64,000 bases of DNA from Streptomyces sp. NBC_01210. GTDB lineage: Bacteria > Actinomycetota > Actinomycetes > Streptomycetales > Streptomycetaceae. A model generated the notes under the pieces. It saw nothing but the letters and a program-made list of their open reading frames with translations. It searched no databases and was not told the DNA's origin. Positions 9,595 to 43,792 of the stretch are shown here, in pieces. The DNA lies in the NCBI RefSeq assembly GCF_036010325.1, contig NZ_CP108549.1, positions 496,001 through 560,000 on the forward strand, in the 5' to 3' direction. A program made the translations under genes and the position numbers. The stretch's first letter is position 1; every line of letters starts with the position of its first letter.

Positions 9595-10119
9595 TCAGGC
9601 GGCAACCAGTGAGGCGCGGATCCGACTGACGGCACGCAGGACCTCGTCTCGGTTCTTCGCTCGCTTGATCCATGCCGGAAGGCGGGCCACCAAGGTCATC
9701 TTTTGTCCGGTGTCGTACCAGGGCGCTCGTTCTCGCAGCGACGCTTGGACGAAACGGCGGATCAGGTCGAGATGTTCGAGGTTGTACGCCCACAACCACC
9801 CATGCCTGGTCTCAACCTGGAACCACAGCGGCATACCGAAGTATGGATCCGTCGCGGGTTGAGCTGTGCCACGGGAGAGCGTGACAAGACGGCCGCTCCA
9901 CACCCGTGACAGTCCGCAGCCACGGCAGACCAGACGTCGCGGCCTGAACAGCATCCGACCTCCGGGATCGGAGTCTTCGGGCGCTGGAATGACACGAGCG
10001 GCCTTCGCACAACCGGGGCATCGCACAATGATCGAGCTGATGAAGTCGTACTCGGTACTGCGCGGATCCCGGAACCGACCGGAGAGCAAGGCCATGCGCT
10101 GAGTATGCAGCTGCCCCAC
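9595..10119 (-). CDS. conserved zinc-ribbon protein of unknown function
   Basis: A 174-residue protein, conserved in Streptomyces as far as I recall but without known role. A zinc ribbon is formed by RCPGCAK and, about 35 residues on, VCRGCGLSRVW, which resembles the TFIIB-type ribbon. The second half has an aromatic segment (FQVETRHGWLWAYNLEHLDL) and a basic tail. Start is uncertain: GTG at 10119 or ATG at 10095 (MALLSGRFRDPRSTEYDFIS), neither with a strong ribosome-binding site. It is a lone gene next to an IS relic. Confidence 0.75.
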   Translation of the reverse strand: MGQLHTQRMALLSGRFRDPRSTEYDFISSIIVRCPGCAKAARVIPAPEDSDPGGRMLFRPRRLVCRGCGLSRVWSGRLVTLSRGTAQPATDPYFGMPLWFQVETRHGWLWAYNLEHLDLIRRFVQASLRERAPWYDTGQKMTLVARLPAWIKRAKNRDEVLRAVSRIRASLVAA

Positions 10120-10258
10120 AGATCAGCGCATCCCGATTCGACCACTCACGCTCAGGCCCGCCGGCACCCTGCCAGAGCCGGACGAAGGTTCAAGAACAAG
10201 CTAAGTGCCTGTTCTTGAACCGGTAGGTCGGCGCGACTGCATATGACAAGATCAGCTT

Positions 10259-10423
10259 GTGGCTCGACATTCGGTGACCTTGAGCAGAATCGAGCTCGCA
10301 GACTGGCGAGCTGTCTACTCCTGGGCCTCCCTCGCCCAGGTCTGCCGCTTCCAGGCCTGGGGACCGAACACCGAAGAGCAAACGCGCGCGTTCGTGGCGA
10401 CTGCGGTCGAGGCCTGGGCGCAC
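10259..10423 (+). pseudogene. 5' fragment of a GNAT acetyltransferase
   Basis: The GTG at 10259 opens a frame reading VTLSRIELADWRAVYSWASL and FQAWGPNTEEQTRAFVATAV, the N-terminal strand and first helices of a RimJ-like GNAT protein. After about 55 residues the sequence passes directly into the 3' end of an IS630 relic lying on the other strand. The acetyl-CoA-binding loop is missing, so the fragment is not functional. I did not find the remainder of the gene beyond the relic. Confidence 0.65.
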
Positions 10424-10811
10424 TCTTTGATGTGGCCGTAGAGCTTCGCCCGGCGCCTGCGGCGGGGCTCGCGGCCAGGGTCTTTGTGCCTGCCCCGCGT
10501 TCGGCCCACTGTTGGCCGGGGTGGGGCATCAGGTTGAGCGGGCCTAACTCGTCCATGCAGAAGACGACTTCGGGCTCGCCTTCCTCGGGTATGACCTCGC
10601 CGTCAGCGATCGCGTAGAGGTGTTCGACACGGGCCTTCTTGGCCGCGTAGTCGGGGTCGCGGGAGGTCTTCCAGGTCTTCAGGCGTTGAAAGGAGACGCC
10701 TTCCTCGCGGAGCAGGATGCGCAGGCCCTCGTGGCTGATGTCGTCGACCACCCCCTCGGCGACCAGGAAATCCGCCAGCTTGGACAGACTCCAGGTGGAA
10801 AACGGCAGGCC
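10423..10811 (-). pseudogene. second IS630-family transposase relic
   Basis: The minus strand reads LPFSTWSLSKLADFLVAEGV, then LRILLREEGVSFQRLKTWKT and EPEVVFCMDELGPLNLMPHP, the central part of an IS630 transposase including the first catalytic Asp region (CMDE). A frameshift near 10500 is followed in another frame by RHKDPGREPRRRRRAKLYGHIK, where about 20 family residues are missing. Both ends of the transposase are absent. It abuts the truncated GNAT gene at 10423. It is not the same fragment as the relic at 7016, so at least two insertions or one broken pair existed. Confidence 0.8.
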
Positions 10812-38888: not shown

Positions 38889-39350
38889 TTCTGACGTGCG
38901 GCGCCCGCGCGGGATGCCGCCGATCTTTTGGGCCTCCGAATCCCTTCCCCGCCCATGCGCGACAAAGGTCGGAAAAGCTCTGCGTCACCCTTCAGGAGTA
39001 CAGCGGATTCGTCCCGGCGTTCGACCAACTCATCGAAGGTGTCCTCCGGTGCCTTCAGTGGCGTGTCCGGTGGCAGTTGCTCTGCCGGCTCCTATTGCCG
39101 GTGACGAATACCGACTCGGGGCCCTACGCGCGGCGGATCGCGAACGGATCAGCAACACCCCCTGGCAGCCTCCGCCCCTTCACCGCCCCTGCGCGGGCCG
39201 CGAGGCTTGCTGTGACCTACCTCACCTACGCCTGCCAGTCATGTGCACGAACTGCCTGGTCAGCGCCTCGCTCCGGCAGTCACTGACTGCCCGTTGGCCG
39301 GATTCGTCAACAAGCTGTCATTGCGGCCAGTTCGACACCGGATACAGGCT
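38889..39350. other. intergenic before the glxA-like gene
   Basis: No gene recognised. The right half must contain the promoter of the four-gene operon starting at 39351. The 30 bases before the GTG (TTGCGG and GATACAGG) could be -35/-10 elements giving a leader of only a few bases; this is a guess. Confidence 0.4.
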
Positions 39351-40373
39351 GTGACCGTGTTAGAGCGACGTGTTGTGGTGGTTGTTTACTCCGGTGCGCA
39401 GGCCCTGGACATCACCGGACCCATTGAAGTGTTCGATACCGTCAACCGGCTGCTCCCCAAGTCGGGTGCCCCCTACCGGATCGAGTTCGTCTCCACCGAT
39501 GCGCCACTGGTGCGGACCAGCTCAGGGGTGGTGATCGAAGCCGCCCCGCTGGAAGCGGGTCAGGGCCCGATCGACACCCTCCTCGTCCCGGGCGGATGGA
39601 GCCTGAACGACGCGCTCGGGAACCGGGAGCTGGTCTCGTGGATCGGCCAGGCCGCCGCCCGGTCGCGGAGAGTCGCGTCCGTATGCGGCGGATCTTTTCT
39701 GCTCGCCGAGGCGGGCCTGCTCGACGGGCGGCGCGCCACCACGCACTGGGCGTACTGCGAGCAGATGGCCTACCGCTACCCGAACGTGACGGTGGACCCC
39801 GAGCCGATCTTCATCTGGGACGGCCGGTTCGTCACCTCGGCGGGAGTGTCGACCGGCATCGACATGGCCCTCGCTCTGGTGGAGGCCGACCACGGCGCGG
39901 CGTTCGCGCTGCAGATAGCACGTTTTCTGGTGCTGTTCCTCAAGCGGCACGGAGGACAGTCGCAGTTCAGTGCCGTCCTCGACGCCCAGTTGGCCGATCA
40001 CGCGCCGATCCGGGCCGCACAGGAGTGGATCCTGGACAACCTGGAGGAACCGCTGCCCGTGGCCGAGATCGCCCAGCGGGCCAATATGAGCCTGCGCAAT
40101 TTCGCCCGGGTGTTCCGGCGCGAGGTGGGCACGCCCCCCGGCCAATACGTCGAGCGGACGCGTATCGCCCGCGCCCGCGAGCTGCTGGAGACCACCGATC
40201 TGACGGTCGGCCAGGTAGCGCGCCGCTGCGGATTCGCGGCCCCCGAGACGTTCTTCCGCTCCTTCGGACGAGCCCTGGGACTCACCCCGAACGAGTACCG
40301 ACACCGCTTTCAGATCATCTCGCCGTCCGGCCTCATGGTCCAGCCCGACCAAGCTGACAGGAGCTCCGTATGA
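39351..40373 (+). CDS. GlxA-type regulator (DJ-1/PfpI + AraC) with TTA codon
   Basis: A 340-residue regulator. The N-terminal DJ-1/PfpI domain (about residues 5-190) has LDITGPIEVFDTVNRLLPKS, LLVPGGWSLNDAL and SVCGGSFLLAEAGLLDGRRA with the nucleophile-like Cys. The C-terminal AraC domain shows PVAEIAQRANMSLRNFARVF and VGQVARRCGFAAPETFFRSF. GTG at 39351 or 39357. The fourth codon (second from the later start) is TTA, read only by the bldA leucyl-tRNA, so translation is probably tied to development. Its stop overlaps the next gene's ATG (ATGA), placing it first in the operon and probably regulating it. Confidence 0.93.
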   Translation: MTVLERRVVVVVYSGAQALDITGPIEVFDTVNRLLPKSGAPYRIEFVSTDAPLVRTSSGVVIEAAPLEAGQGPIDTLLVPGGWSLNDALGNRELVSWIGQAAARSRRVASVCGGSFLLAEAGLLDGRRATTHWAYCEQMAYRYPNVTVDPEPIFIWDGRFVTSAGVSTGIDMALALVEADHGAAFALQIARFLVLFLKRHGGQSQFSAVLDAQLADHAPIRAAQEWILDNLEEPLPVAEIAQRANMSLRNFARVFRREVGTPPGQYVERTRIARARELLETTDLTVGQVARRCGFAAPETFFRSFGRALGLTPNEYRHRFQIISPSGLMVQPDQADRSSV

Positions 40374-42151
40374 CAGCCACGCCACGCGAGATTCGCGAGG
40401 GATGCGGGGTACGCCTTGTCGACTACCTGGCAGCAGAGTTGACCAGGGCCGGCGTCACCCACCTCTTCGGCGTCGGCGGTGCGAACATCGAGGACCTGTA
40501 CGACGCCGTCCACCGCAGCAGCACCATCCGCGGCGTTGTCGCCAAGCACGAGTTCTCCGCCGTCACCATGGCCGACGGATACGCCCGCGCCACGAGGCGC
40601 CTCGGCGTTGTCGCAGCCACCTCGGGCGGCGGCGCGATGAATCTTGTGCCGGGTCTGGCGGAGGCATACGCCTCACGGGTGCCGGTGCTGGCTCTCGTGG
40701 GACAGCCGCCCACCGGCCAGGAGGGCCGGGGGGCGTTCCAGGACTCCAGCGGCAAGGCAGGCTCCTTCGACGCCATGGAGGTGTTCACACCCGTCTCCCG
40801 GTTCTGCGCCCGGGTCGATGACGCGGACGCGTTCGCGGAGTTACTGCCCCGGGCGGTCGCGGCGGCACAGACCCATCCGAAGGGGCCGGCGGTGCTGCTG
40901 CTGCCCAAGGACGTGCAGCAGGCACGGATCGAGGTGCCCGTACGCGGCGTGACGCCGACGCCGCTCGTGCCGGCAGCGACCGCGTCGCGCGCGTCCGCTG
41001 CGGGGCTCGAAGCCGAGGCTCGGGACGCTGCGTCGACCGCGCTTCGCGGCGCGAGCCGTGTCCTCGTCATCGCCGGTGAAGGGGTGGCCGCCGCGAATGC
41101 GTGCGCGGAGCTGGCGGAGCTGGCCCGGCGGCTCGGGGCCTGGGTGGCGGTCACCCCGGACGCCAAGGATGTGTTCGACAACCGGGACCCCCGGTTCGCA
41201 GGTGTAGCCGGGGTGATGGGGCATGCAAATGTCGAAGACTGTCTGCGGCGGGCCGACTTCTGCGTGCTGGTTGGCACCCGGCTGCCGGTACTGGCACGCG
41301 GCGGACTGGACCAGGCCCTGGCCGCCACCCCGGTCGTCTGCATCGACCCCGAACCGCCGTTCGTAGCCGGCATCGCGCTGGGCGGGAACCTGCGGGACAC
41401 GCTGCGTGCAGTGGCGCGGCAGCTTCCGTCGCGCCCGCTTCCCTGCCCGGAGCACGCCGGTCCCCTACCGACGCCCCCACCGACGCCGGTTGCGCAGGCC
41501 GGTGGTGGAACCATCTCCTACGCCGAGGCGGTTGCCGCGGTCGAGGCGGCACTCCCCCAGGACGCGCACGTCTTCGTGGACGCCGGCAACGCAGGGGCCA
41601 GCGCGGTCCATCTGCTTCCGGCACCGCGCCACGGCCGCTTCGTGGTGGCGGTCGGCATGGGCGGCATGGGCTACACCTTCGGTGCCGGCATCGGCGCCGC
41701 ACTGGCCACGGGCCAACGCACCTACGTACTCGCGGGCGACGGAGCGTTCTTCATGCACGGGATGGAAGTGCACACCGCCGTTGAGTACGCCGCACCCGTG
41801 ACCTTCGTGATCTTCAACAACAACGCCCATGGCATGTGCGCCATCCGCGAAGAGCTCTTCCAGGGCGGCGTCCGCAGCGACGACCTGTTCGCCCGGACAG
41901 ACATCGCCGCCGGGGTGGCCGCCGCCTTTCCGGCCCTTGGGGCCACATGGGCCGGCGACGCCGCGCAACTGTGCCAGGCGCTGCTGCGCAGCAACGCGCG
42001 CAGCGGCCCGGCGTTCATCTCGCTGGACTGCGACGCCCGGGAGATCCCGCCCTTCCTTCCCTTCCTGTCCTTCACCGAAAGCACTCAACGCACTGAAAGC
42101 ACCGAGAGCGAGGAGAGTTCCGATGAGCGCGGACCCGTCCACGTTGGCTGA
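40370..42151 (+). CDS. thiamine-diphosphate enzyme, acetolactate-synthase-like
   Basis: A 593-residue ThDP enzyme with three domains. N-terminal Pyr domain: VTHLFGVGGANIEDLYDAVH and AKHEFSAVTMADGYARATRR with the cofactor-activating Glu; SRVPVLALVGQPPTGQE follows. Central domain: SRVLVIAGEGVAAANACAEL. C-terminal PP domain: VLAGDGAFFMHGMEVHTAVE ... NNNAHGMC, the GDG-NN metal site. It probably joins an alpha-keto acid to an aldehyde or second keto acid (acyloin or acetolactate-type carboligation) or decarboxylates. The Ser/Thr/Glu-rich tail overlaps the next gene by 29 bases. Overlaps on both sides indicate one transcript. Confidence 0.93.
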   Translation: MTATPREIREGCGVRLVDYLAAELTRAGVTHLFGVGGANIEDLYDAVHRSSTIRGVVAKHEFSAVTMADGYARATRRLGVVAATSGGGAMNLVPGLAEAYASRVPVLALVGQPPTGQEGRGAFQDSSGKAGSFDAMEVFTPVSRFCARVDDADAFAELLPRAVAAAQTHPKGPAVLLLPKDVQQARIEVPVRGVTPTPLVPAATASRASAAGLEAEARDAASTALRGASRVLVIAGEGVAAANACAELAELARRLGAWVAVTPDAKDVFDNRDPRFAGVAGVMGHANVEDCLRRADFCVLVGTRLPVLARGGLDQALAATPVVCIDPEPPFVAGIALGGNLRDTLRAVARQLPSRPLPCPEHAGPLPTPPPTPVAQAGGGTISYAEAVAAVEAALPQDAHVFVDAGNAGASAVHLLPAPRHGRFVVAVGMGGMGYTFGAGIGAALATGQRTYVLAGDGAFFMHGMEVHTAVEYAAPVTFVIFNNNAHGMCAIREELFQGGVRSDDLFARTDIAAGVAAAFPALGATWAGDAAQLCQALLRSNARSGPAFISLDCDAREIPPFLPFLSFTESTQRTESTESEESSDERGPVHVG

Positions 42152-42776
42152 CATCCCCGGCCTGATGCGGATCGAGAACACCGGCAAGGAGGAGCTGACC
42201 GCCCACTGCATGGACCTCACCCGCGCGGTCTATCCGCACCACCAGGTCTACGGGCAGTACTGCACCATCCACGAGCACGTCGACTGTCCACCGGAGCAGG
42301 CCTATGACTACCTGCGCCAGGGTCACCACCTGGAGGAGTGGACCTGCAGCCTGCGGGACTTCGCGCCCGCCGGCACCCCGGGACTGTGGGTCGGCCACGA
42401 CCGGCTGGAGGACGACACCAGGATCTACTGCAAGGTGGTGGCCAACCCCGAGGCGATGACGGTGGACTACCACTGCTCCTGGGACCAGGGCGAGAAGCTG
42501 TGGATGATTTACCTGATGCGCGTCGTCCCGGCCCCGCTGGTGCTCAACAAGCCGGGGTCGGTGATCACCTGGACCAACTGCCGGCACCCGTACTACGACG
42601 ACAACCCCCACCCCGAGACGGCGCCCCGCCCGGAGCGGCCGTGGGTGGGCGACTACTGGGATCTGTTCTACGCGGGCCACACCGTGGAGATGAGAAACCT
42701 CAAGGCAATCCTGGAGCACCGCCACCGCGGCGGCCTGCCCGTCAGCGTGCCACCTGCGACGGCGGTGCTGCAGTGA
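42123..42776 (+). CDS. SRPBCC-family protein of the acyloin-like operon
   Basis: A 217-residue protein. ATG at 42123 follows GAGGAGAG by about six bases, within the end of the ThDP gene. The START-like (helix-grip) fold is suggested by YCTIHEHVDCPPEQAYDYLR, EEWTCSLRDFAPAGTPGLWV, IYCKVVANPEAMTVDYHCSW and a long C-terminal helix. No catalytic motif is certain; several Cys and His residues are notable. SRPBCC proteins bind hydrophobic small molecules and can act as cyclases, aromatases or carriers. Position between ThDP enzyme and ketosynthase suggests it processes their shared intermediate. Its TGA overlaps the next GTG (GTGA). Confidence 0.8.
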   Translation: MSADPSTLADIPGLMRIENTGKEELTAHCMDLTRAVYPHHQVYGQYCTIHEHVDCPPEQAYDYLRQGHHLEEWTCSLRDFAPAGTPGLWVGHDRLEDDTRIYCKVVANPEAMTVDYHCSWDQGEKLWMIYLMRVVPAPLVLNKPGSVITWTNCRHPYYDDNPHPETAPRPERPWVGDYWDLFYAGHTVEMRNLKAILEHRHRGGLPVSVPPATAVLQ

Positions 42777-43792
42777 ACACGGTCAGCCTCACCGATGTCG
42801 CAAGCTACCTTCCCGGTGAGCCGGTGCCCGCGGAGTTCTACACCGAGTACCCCGGAGCCGAGGACAAGCTCCGCGACCACCCCATGTTCAAGGTCCCCCC
42901 GTTACGTCACCACGTGGCCGCGGACGAGACCAACGCGGACATGATCGAGCGCGCGGTTCAGCCCCTGATCGAACGGCACGGCAGGGATGAGATCCGCGAC
43001 GTGGATGTGCTGTTGGTGCACAGCCAGGTGCCGGACCTCCCGTTCGTGGGCGCGGGCACCGAAGTGGCACGCCGACTGGGACTGCACCCGGAATGGCTGA
43101 TCGACGTGGCCAACGCGGGCTGCGCGTCATTCGTGTACATGCTCAAGCTGGCCCGTCGGCTGCTCACCACCACCGATGCGAGAACCGCCCTGATCTGCAA
43201 TGCGCAAAGCGCCGCAGGCCAGTGGTTCACCCAGTCCGAGGTGCGCAGGCTCGCCCAGGCCGCGATACCGGGCGACGGCTGCGGCGTGGGATACGTGACG
43301 ACCTCGGCCGGCGCCCCGGTGCTGGATGTGGAGACCCGGCACATCGGTGCCTACGCCGGCGACATGACCGTGATGCTCGACGACGGCCGCAAGTACTGGG
43401 AGCCCGGGGAGTCCCAGCTGCGGATCGGATTCACCGAGGCCGGCGTCGCCAAGGTCCTGGCACGCGGGAACCGCCTCGTGCCAGAGGTGGTCACGGACCT
43501 GTGCGGGCGACTCGGGGTGGCCACCACCGAGATCGACGTGTTCATCACCAACCAGCCCAACCGAACGTTCCTGCGGAACTGGCGCGAAGCCCTGCAACTG
43601 CCGGCCGAACGGCACCTGCACACGTTCGATCAATGCGGGAATCTATTCGGAGCGGCGATCCCGATCACCTTGGACCGTGCCATCCGCTCACAGCACCTCG
43701 AGGACGGCGACCTGGTGGTGCTGGGGGGATTCGCCCACGCAGGCGACTTCGCCGGTGCCGTCGCCATCCGCTGGCGCGGAGGGCGGGGATGA
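42773..43792 (+). CDS. KASIII/FabH-like enzyme with His-to-Asn change
   Basis: A 339-residue thiolase-fold protein. Catalytic Cys117 lies in VANAGCASFVYMLKLARR. The second active-site position reads FITNQPNRTF: Asn260 stands where FabH has His (HQAN). Asn290 in QCGNLFGAAIP matches the FabH Asn. Without the His, normal malonyl decarboxylation is doubtful; the fold is also used by acyltransferases that move acyl groups to alcohols. With the ThDP enzyme upstream this suggests acylation of an acyloin. GTG at 42773 overlaps the SRPBCC stop. Last clear gene of the operon. Confidence 0.9.
   Translation: MNTVSLTDVASYLPGEPVPAEFYTEYPGAEDKLRDHPMFKVPPLRHHVAADETNADMIERAVQPLIERHGRDEIRDVDVLLVHSQVPDLPFVGAGTEVARRLGLHPEWLIDVANAGCASFVYMLKLARRLLTTTDARTALICNAQSAAGQWFTQSEVRRLAQAAIPGDGCGVGYVTTSAGAPVLDVETRHIGAYAGDMTVMLDDGRKYWEPGESQLRIGFTEAGVAKVLARGNRLVPEVVTDLCGRLGVATTEIDVFITNQPNRTFLRNWREALQLPAERHLHTFDQCGNLFGAAIPITLDRAIRSQHLEDGDLVVLGGFAHAGDFAGAVAIRWRGGRG

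Follow-up and report, generated by a model that had tools for sequence, protein, structure and literature searches.

What a compact run of four overlapping genes in Streptomyces sp. NBC_01210 might produce is the question raised by this locus. The genes lie in a stretch of 64,000 nucleotides, referred to here as the window, which corresponds to positions 496001-560000 of a 9.1 Mb contig in a genome of 9.2 Mb. The initial annotation described them as a jointly acting set consisting of a GlxA regulator, a thiamine diphosphate (ThDP) enzyme, an SRPBCC protein and a variant 3-oxoacyl-acyl carrier protein synthase III (KASIII), and likened this set to acyloin ester pathways. On comparison of the encoded proteins with their relatives, we consider it probable, though by no means settled, that the operon is a regulated minimal pathway of the carbazole type, from a sister lineage, which would yield a 1-alkyl-2-methyl-3-oxygenated carbazole of the lipocarbazole or carazostatin type. 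The four forward-strand open reading frames (ORFs) are indeed open at the coordinates first claimed, with junction overlaps of 4 bases (ATGA, 40370), 29 bases (42123-42151) and 4 bases (GTGA, 42773). The features considered are the following.

39294..39333, + strand: conserved block TTGGCCGGATTCGTCAACAAGCTGTCATTGCGGCCAGTTC located 5' of the regulator gene, a probable promoter/operator region of the operon, its function being suggested by conservation.
39351..40373, + strand: GlxA-type regulator of 340 residues with GTG start, containing DJ-1/PfpI and AraC-type helix-turn-helix (HTH) domains (Pfam).
40370..42151, + strand: ThDP-dependent carboligase of 593 residues, related to CqsB3/NzsH (Pfam TPP_enzyme N, M and C domains; tree).
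42123..42776, + strand: SRPBCC/Bet v1-type cyclase of 217 residues, homologue of CqsB2 (PDB match, residues).
42773..43792, + strand: KASIII-like acyl-condensing enzyme of 339 residues with GTG start (Pfam ACP_syn_III), in which Cys117-Asn260-Asn290 replaces Cys-His-Asn.

The clearest clue comes from the SRPBCC protein, which had been regarded as an added component of an acyloin pathway and turns out instead to be a homologue of a ring-closing enzyme. Its Pfam match to Polyketide_cyc2 (20.8 bits) falls under the cut-off of 27.4 for that family, and its sole sequence match in the PDB, even at E <= 10, is CqsB2 (6ipv; E 4.4e-51), 43% of the 194 aligned residues being identical. CqsB2 acts as carbazole synthase in carquinostatin formation; its residues Tyr144, Tyr172, His206, Glu209 and Glu105 are proposed to be catalytic, and the indole ring acts as the nucleophile, as described in PMC7466098. 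Four of these five residues are kept in the window cyclase, as Tyr130, Tyr158, His186 and Glu189, and the position of Glu105 is occupied by Asp93. The conservation was followed in 353 aligned cyclases, comprising the window protein, CqsB2 and the 351 matches listed (120 each listed of 828, 124 and 877). Among the matches listed, the Tyr144 and Tyr172 positions are kept in all 353 sequences and those of His206 and Glu209 in 352, one sequence being truncated; position 105 is Asp in 261 of the 263 cyclases without a 6-residue insert, and Glu (69), Asp (10), Met (10) or Asn (1) in the 90 that bear it. The cyclase tree shows two sister groups (100/100), with one Sorangium cyclase grouping with CqsB2.

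The carquinostatin and neocarazostatin clusters share a carbazole core made up of CqsB3 (ThDP enzyme), CqsB2 (cyclase) and CqsB1 (KASIII-like enzyme), equivalent to NzsH, NzsI and NzsJ (PMC7466098). Since the window cyclase matches CqsB2 and the combination of ThDP, SRPBCC and KASIII-like enzymes equals CqsB3/B2/B1, the gene families of the operon are those of this core, and the initial statement that no described Streptomyces system has this set was mistaken in the light of the same account (PMC7466098).

The three enzymes, hereafter the trio, travel together. A scan of genome contigs with an alignment of 21 cyclases detected 522 stretches that code for relatives from either lineage; the best-scoring 80 were retained as loci. 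In 79 of these 80 the trio genes are neighbours, ordered ThDP-cyclase-KASIII in 75 and cyclase-KASIII-ThDP in 4. The exception is L085, from Mycobacterium shimoidei, where a solitary trio-type cyclase (10001-10624) precedes a second set, at a distance of about 7.5 kb from the ThDP gene of that set; the second set is cut by the locus end. Hosts include Streptomycetaceae, Micromonosporaceae, Mycobacterium and its kin, Rhodococcus, Planctomycetota, Bdellovibrionota, Myxococcota and Pseudomonadota. A gene for the regulator precedes the trio in all 51 loci from L029 to L079 (49 under a stricter rule, a 400-base limit applied to single BLAST pieces), and in 47 of these 51 a stop codon yields the same 29-base overlap between the ThDP and SRPBCC genes. 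Because of this adjacency, the constant upstream regulator and the shared overlap, the four-gene arrangement is not due to chance; the genes are not scattered amongst relatives, and the earlier view that they act as one operon is sustained.

The ThDP enzyme finds its best solved match in BbmA (PDB 8x3x, 8xod; E 3e-65), followed by CsmA and acetolactate synthases, and with none of the 25 NCBIfam families shown does its score reach the curated cut-off. In a tree of such enzymes, those of the window, 18 other trio loci and 6 carbazole clusters form one clade (100/99), outside which lie BbmA and two proteins of the acetolactate synthase type; the 6 carbazole-cluster enzymes were classed as such from the gene order of their loci and the CqsB2-type cyclase encoded there, the tree containing neither CqsB3 nor NzsH. 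The rows of this tree, as of the cyclase and KASIII trees, were hand-picked from the loci to span taxa. Five paralogues from the window's own genome, CsmA and the trio rows L009, L048 and L066 were left out, L175 was substituted for L020 (same place) and four carbazole-type rows were added; the resulting tree supersedes an earlier, unclear one with long outgroup rows. Identity as a biosynthetic acetolactate synthase is ruled out by the score against that NCBIfam family (230.7 bits, where the cut-off is 538.35) and by the position of the enzyme outside that clade, and a different place in the same genome (L003) encodes the protein that clusters with E. coli acetolactate synthase I. An oxalyl-CoA decarboxylase was likewise rejected, by match scores alone, one such chain giving E 5e-32, weaker than BbmA. 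The comparison with acetolactate synthases proposed in the initial annotation thus gave no grouping with them in the tree, and its pairing of a carboligating-type ThDP enzyme with an adjacent KASIII-like enzyme that joins acyl groups agrees with the families and adjacency found. Carbazole-type ThDP enzymes are confined to one half of the clade, beside trio enzymes of Planctomycetota (93/94), and the window enzyme falls in the other half. Since they nest inside one half while the cyclases form two sister groups, the three enzymes, as read from these trees, differ in the details of their descent.

The KASIII-like enzyme was rightly called a variant. It retains Cys117 and Asn290, and the place of the catalytic His is taken by Asn260, so that the Cys-His-Asn triad of the CqsB/Nzs cassette is broken. 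The corresponding motif is TNQPN or SNQPN in 101 of 102 trio loci, a number that includes some places taken twice, the KASIII of L085 being cut off; in the carbazole-type enzymes it is THQPN, with His kept in all six loci. The Cys and the second Asn are kept across the aligned trio sequences. As the Asn is common to every readable trio-type KASIII, it is not a local decay. In the KASIII tree the trio enzymes form one group (95/90) and join two carbazole-type enzymes against five FabH-type proteins (100/100). Taken with the matches of the cyclase and the ThDP tree, all three enzymes share descent with those of carbazole clusters.

Loss of the catalytic His would also fit acyl transfer without decarboxylative condensation, as in a xenocyloin-type acyloin ester pathway in which the KASIII-like enzyme does no more than acylate the hydroxyl of the acyloin, with the SRPBCC protein serving to bind or handle the resulting product. 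It is in keeping with such a pathway that the products of CqsB1 and NzsJ turn spontaneously into esters (PMC7466098). An ester pathway, however, would need neither a cyclase gene in the same run, as seen in 79 of 80 loci, nor the retention of ring-closing residues, and we regard it as distinctly improbable.

A clue to the product of a carbazole-type pathway is provided by one genus in which 15 of 16 genomes contain a trio-type cyclase, a CqsB2-type query finding the same 15 places alone. The genus is Tsukamurella, because one of the 16 genomes (G557) is 100% identical to a T. tyrosinosolvens record in 12 of 12 genes compared. The full trio is present in each of the 12 Tsukamurella loci taken. 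Lipocarbazoles have been obtained from Tsukamurella pseudospumae Acta 1857 (reference 7 in PMC7466098); they have a 1-alkyl-2-methylcarbazole frame (PMC11350554) and are listed as 3-oxygenated (PMC7466098), which we take as the mono-oxygenated type. According to a 2020 review, the machinery for mono-oxygenated bacterial carbazoles remains to be identified (PMC7466098). Other genes near the Tsukamurella trio are MeaB (11 loci), a TrpB-like gene (9 of 12) and flavodoxin (8 of 12). Flavodoxin and the TrpB-like gene were considered as pathway genes and rejected, neither occurring in 29 other loci (L082-L108, L009 and L012); the MeaB and TrpB-like genes look like ordinary Tsukamurella neighbours. 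The trio region of L011 (NZ_LR134449.1, 'plasmid 7' of T. tyrosinosolvens) was seen to equal that of L163 (G557:C3) in 12 genes at 100%. The latter is part of a 4.9 Mb contig from a different assembly, so the designation as a plasmid may stem from the way the record was assembled.

A full-length aminotransferase gene lies directly downstream of the KASIII gene in 40 of the 80 loci, with a piece in 4 more, one of them at a contig end. It belongs to the histidinol-phosphate transaminase type, PRK03321 subfamily, and six that were compared are 44-56% identical to those of three of the five carbazole-type loci having one. The nearest paralogue elsewhere in the window's genome is 42% identical. Short matches were noted beside the trio in L055 (11683-12096, with an internal stop), L044 (8429-8596) and L057 (11676-11783), as if the gene were dispensable in some Streptomyces. 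The window itself is without the gene, which, together with these short matches, would suit a degenerate cassette whose aminotransferase is lost, whose KASIII is weakened and which makes no product. Such decay is very unlikely given that the regulator and trio genes are unbroken, with 84-95% identity to their counterparts in L034 and L055, that the upstream block is kept and that the Asn is common to every readable trio-type KASIII.

The proposed course follows the carbazole core in the order aminotransferase, ThDP carboligation, acyl condensation and cyclisation, the substrates, product and reaction order being modelled on that core. An aminotransferase, beside the trio in half of the relatives and here supplied from elsewhere in the genome, would convert tryptophan to indole-3-pyruvate, on which the ThDP enzyme would act. 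The KASIII-like enzyme would then load a fatty acyl group, from coenzyme A (CoA) or the acyl carrier protein (ACP) of fatty-acid synthesis, on its Cys and join it to the acid substrate with loss of CO2. An ordinary acyl donor is inferred because no dedicated ACP or second KASIII is seen among the scanned neighbours. The Asn-Asn pair may take the place of His-Asn in binding the carbonyl or enolate; the acid substrate would shed CO2 easily and may need just two amide groups to hold the enolate. Alternatively, the acyl group may be transferred first and then left to migrate. The SRPBCC cyclase would close ring A onto indole C2. We infer a tryptophan-derived 1-alkyl-2-methylcarbazole, perhaps mono-oxygenated, whose alkyl group would come from the fatty-acid pool, giving an antioxidant of the lipocarbazole or carazostatin type.

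The same logic could operate on phenylpyruvate or 4-hydroxyphenylpyruvate to give a naphthalene-type or other substituted aromatic. The aminotransferase of the relatives, being of the PRK03321 type, is not tryptophan-specific by sequence; Asp at the Glu105 position in 261 of the 263 listed cyclases without the insert could mark a change of substrate; and the lineage spans several phyla from which we know of no carbazole reports. However, indole is the nucleophile in the CqsB2 mechanism (PMC7466098) and a phenyl ring reacts far less readily, the mechanism residues are nearly invariant in both lineages among the matches listed, and Tsukamurella makes carbazoles with the trio-type cyclase as the sole CqsB2 relative found. 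We thus judge a different 2-oxo acid to be unlikely.

Several points weigh against a tryptophan-derived carbazole. The KASIII reaction may differ, because the enzyme is without the His that carbazole-type enzymes keep. To our knowledge, no product has been assigned to any trio-type locus. A mono-oxygenated carbazole needs one two-electron reduction, and no reductase conserved beside the trio was identified, in the course of work that included no systematic search for one. A search 3' of the window KASIII detected neither an aminotransferase gene nor a remnant (best E 0.03). The aminotransferases of the other two of five carbazole-type loci are just 34-43% identical to those beside the trio, and a shared history of trio and carbazole aminotransferases was found to be weak, the tree having long branches and failing to resolve. 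The link to lipocarbazoles is drawn at the level of the genus, strain Acta 1857 being outside the comparison, and T. pseudospumae is only expected to be among the 15 Tsukamurella genomes. Finally, Streptomyces chromofuscus, the species named for carazostatin, does not appear among the best 80 loci, its presence in the scanned set being unchecked.

Within the window's genus, 37 of 392 genomes, its own included, match a CqsB2-type query: 5 have the CqsB2 type (71-86% identity) and 33 the window type (42-49%, whole matches), one having both. Among 150 relatives, again with its own genome, 9 match the window cyclase, one weakly and one being CqsB2-type. The Streptomyces genome G833 contains a CqsB2-type locus (C22:272748-273371, L216) and a trio-type locus (414853-415404, L217) about 142 kb apart on one contig, which suggests that the two types do different jobs. 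Of the six plasmid matches four were taken as loci, the trio forming a single run in L009, L010 (carbazole-type) and L011; in L012, a Nocardia plasmid, the KASIII gene is 5 kb away on the opposite strand. Split matches were seen for the KASIII of L009 (9636-10636) and for the ThDP enzymes of L176 (8794-10773) and L218 (6757-8640), and these may be frameshifts or low-similarity gaps. Two Planctomycetota loci (L088:13556-15928 and L100:13487-15784) have an MMPL-type transporter gene after the trio, and a cytochrome P450 gene comes next in L080 (8916-10259) and L081 (11686-13949), the latter also with a methyltransferase; such neighbours hint at exported or tailored products. No literature on the trio lineage or its product was found among open-licence PubMed Central papers.

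Regarding control, the label GlxA is a fair family name for the DJ-1/PfpI and AraC-type HTH regulator, as seen from its Pfam domains. No copy adjoins the trio in the 29 loci L080-L108. The block GTCATTGC is present in all 21 upstream regions examined (the window and 20 of the 51 regulator-bearing loci), which fits control by the DJ-1/AraC protein, and the regulator would act on the operon from there. The window's block also fits TGGCSNGWWY, which we take to be the AdpA-type site consensus; an AdpA-type operator is a weak reading, this consensus being matched by just 3 of the 21 regions. Ten neighbouring ORFs (30971-53142) look unrelated to the operon; upstream they include an amino-acid permease and a PolX-like DNA polymerase, and downstream a PMT_2 membrane protein, an ABC-2 type transporter protein and a short-chain dehydrogenase. 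No ACP, second KASIII (NzsE/NzsF type) or prenyltransferase is found among these ten, small ORFs, such as those of ACP size, being scanned incompletely.

The trio is a concrete three-gene candidate for the mono-oxygenated carbazole machinery that PMC7466098 calls unidentified, and its lineage supplies naturally occurring condensing enzymes in which Asn stands at the place of the catalytic His. The distribution of genes for carbazole-type assembly also reaches far beyond the small number of clusters described. As a tentative possibility, the carquinostatin/neocarazostatin cassette may be one branch of an older, wider system, with mycobacteria, planctomycetes and others as unrecognised makers of lipid-carbazole antioxidants; this view is weakened because the 522 stretches span both lineages and the operator idea failed.

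Amongst known systems, the carbazole core is the closest. Six carbazole-type loci (L010, L175 and L213-L216) have the order KASIII-cyclase-ThDP, five of them with an aminotransferase, and a second KASIII is nearby in four and does not show in two. Homologous clusters are mentioned in S. cattleya, Sorangium and Scytonema (PMC7466098), and the reaction of NzsH is given alike in PMC9822442 and PMC7466098. Homologues of NzsH, NzsJ and NzsI occur together in the chlocarbazomycin/carbazomycin clusters of S. tubbatahanensis and S. diacarni (PMC10100901), which are likened here by reported gene set alone, not by sequence. Like the CqsB/Nzs core, the window operon has the same three enzyme families side by side, a cyclase 43% identical to CqsB2 with Tyr, Tyr, His and Glu kept, ThDP and KASIII enzymes whose trees unite both lineages and, in its relatives, a related aminotransferase. 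Unlike that core, the trio has Asn for the catalytic His of KASIII, Asp for Glu105 in a cyclase without the 6-residue insert, and the order ThDP-cyclase-KASIII instead of KASIII-cyclase-ThDP; in the window, a DJ-1/AraC regulator stands in front and the ten scanned neighbour ORFs include no second KASIII, ACP or prenyltransferase. BbmA belongs to the same acetolactate-synthase-like ThDP family (E 3e-65) but falls with acetolactate synthases outside the clade of trio and carbazole enzymes. The xenocyloin pathway has the ThDP carboligase XclA beside the KASIII-like XclB/XclC, an adjacency that the operon shares by gene set, not by sequence, and we know of no SRPBCC cyclase in it. The gene-family set is thus one already known from the carbazole core, and the lineage with His replaced by Asn is a separate, widespread sister to the core of carquinostatin and neocarazostatin. 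Because the Cys-His-Asn triad is broken in its KASIII, the operon falls outside the CqsB/Nzs cassette in the strict sense, but it probably functions in a similar manner.

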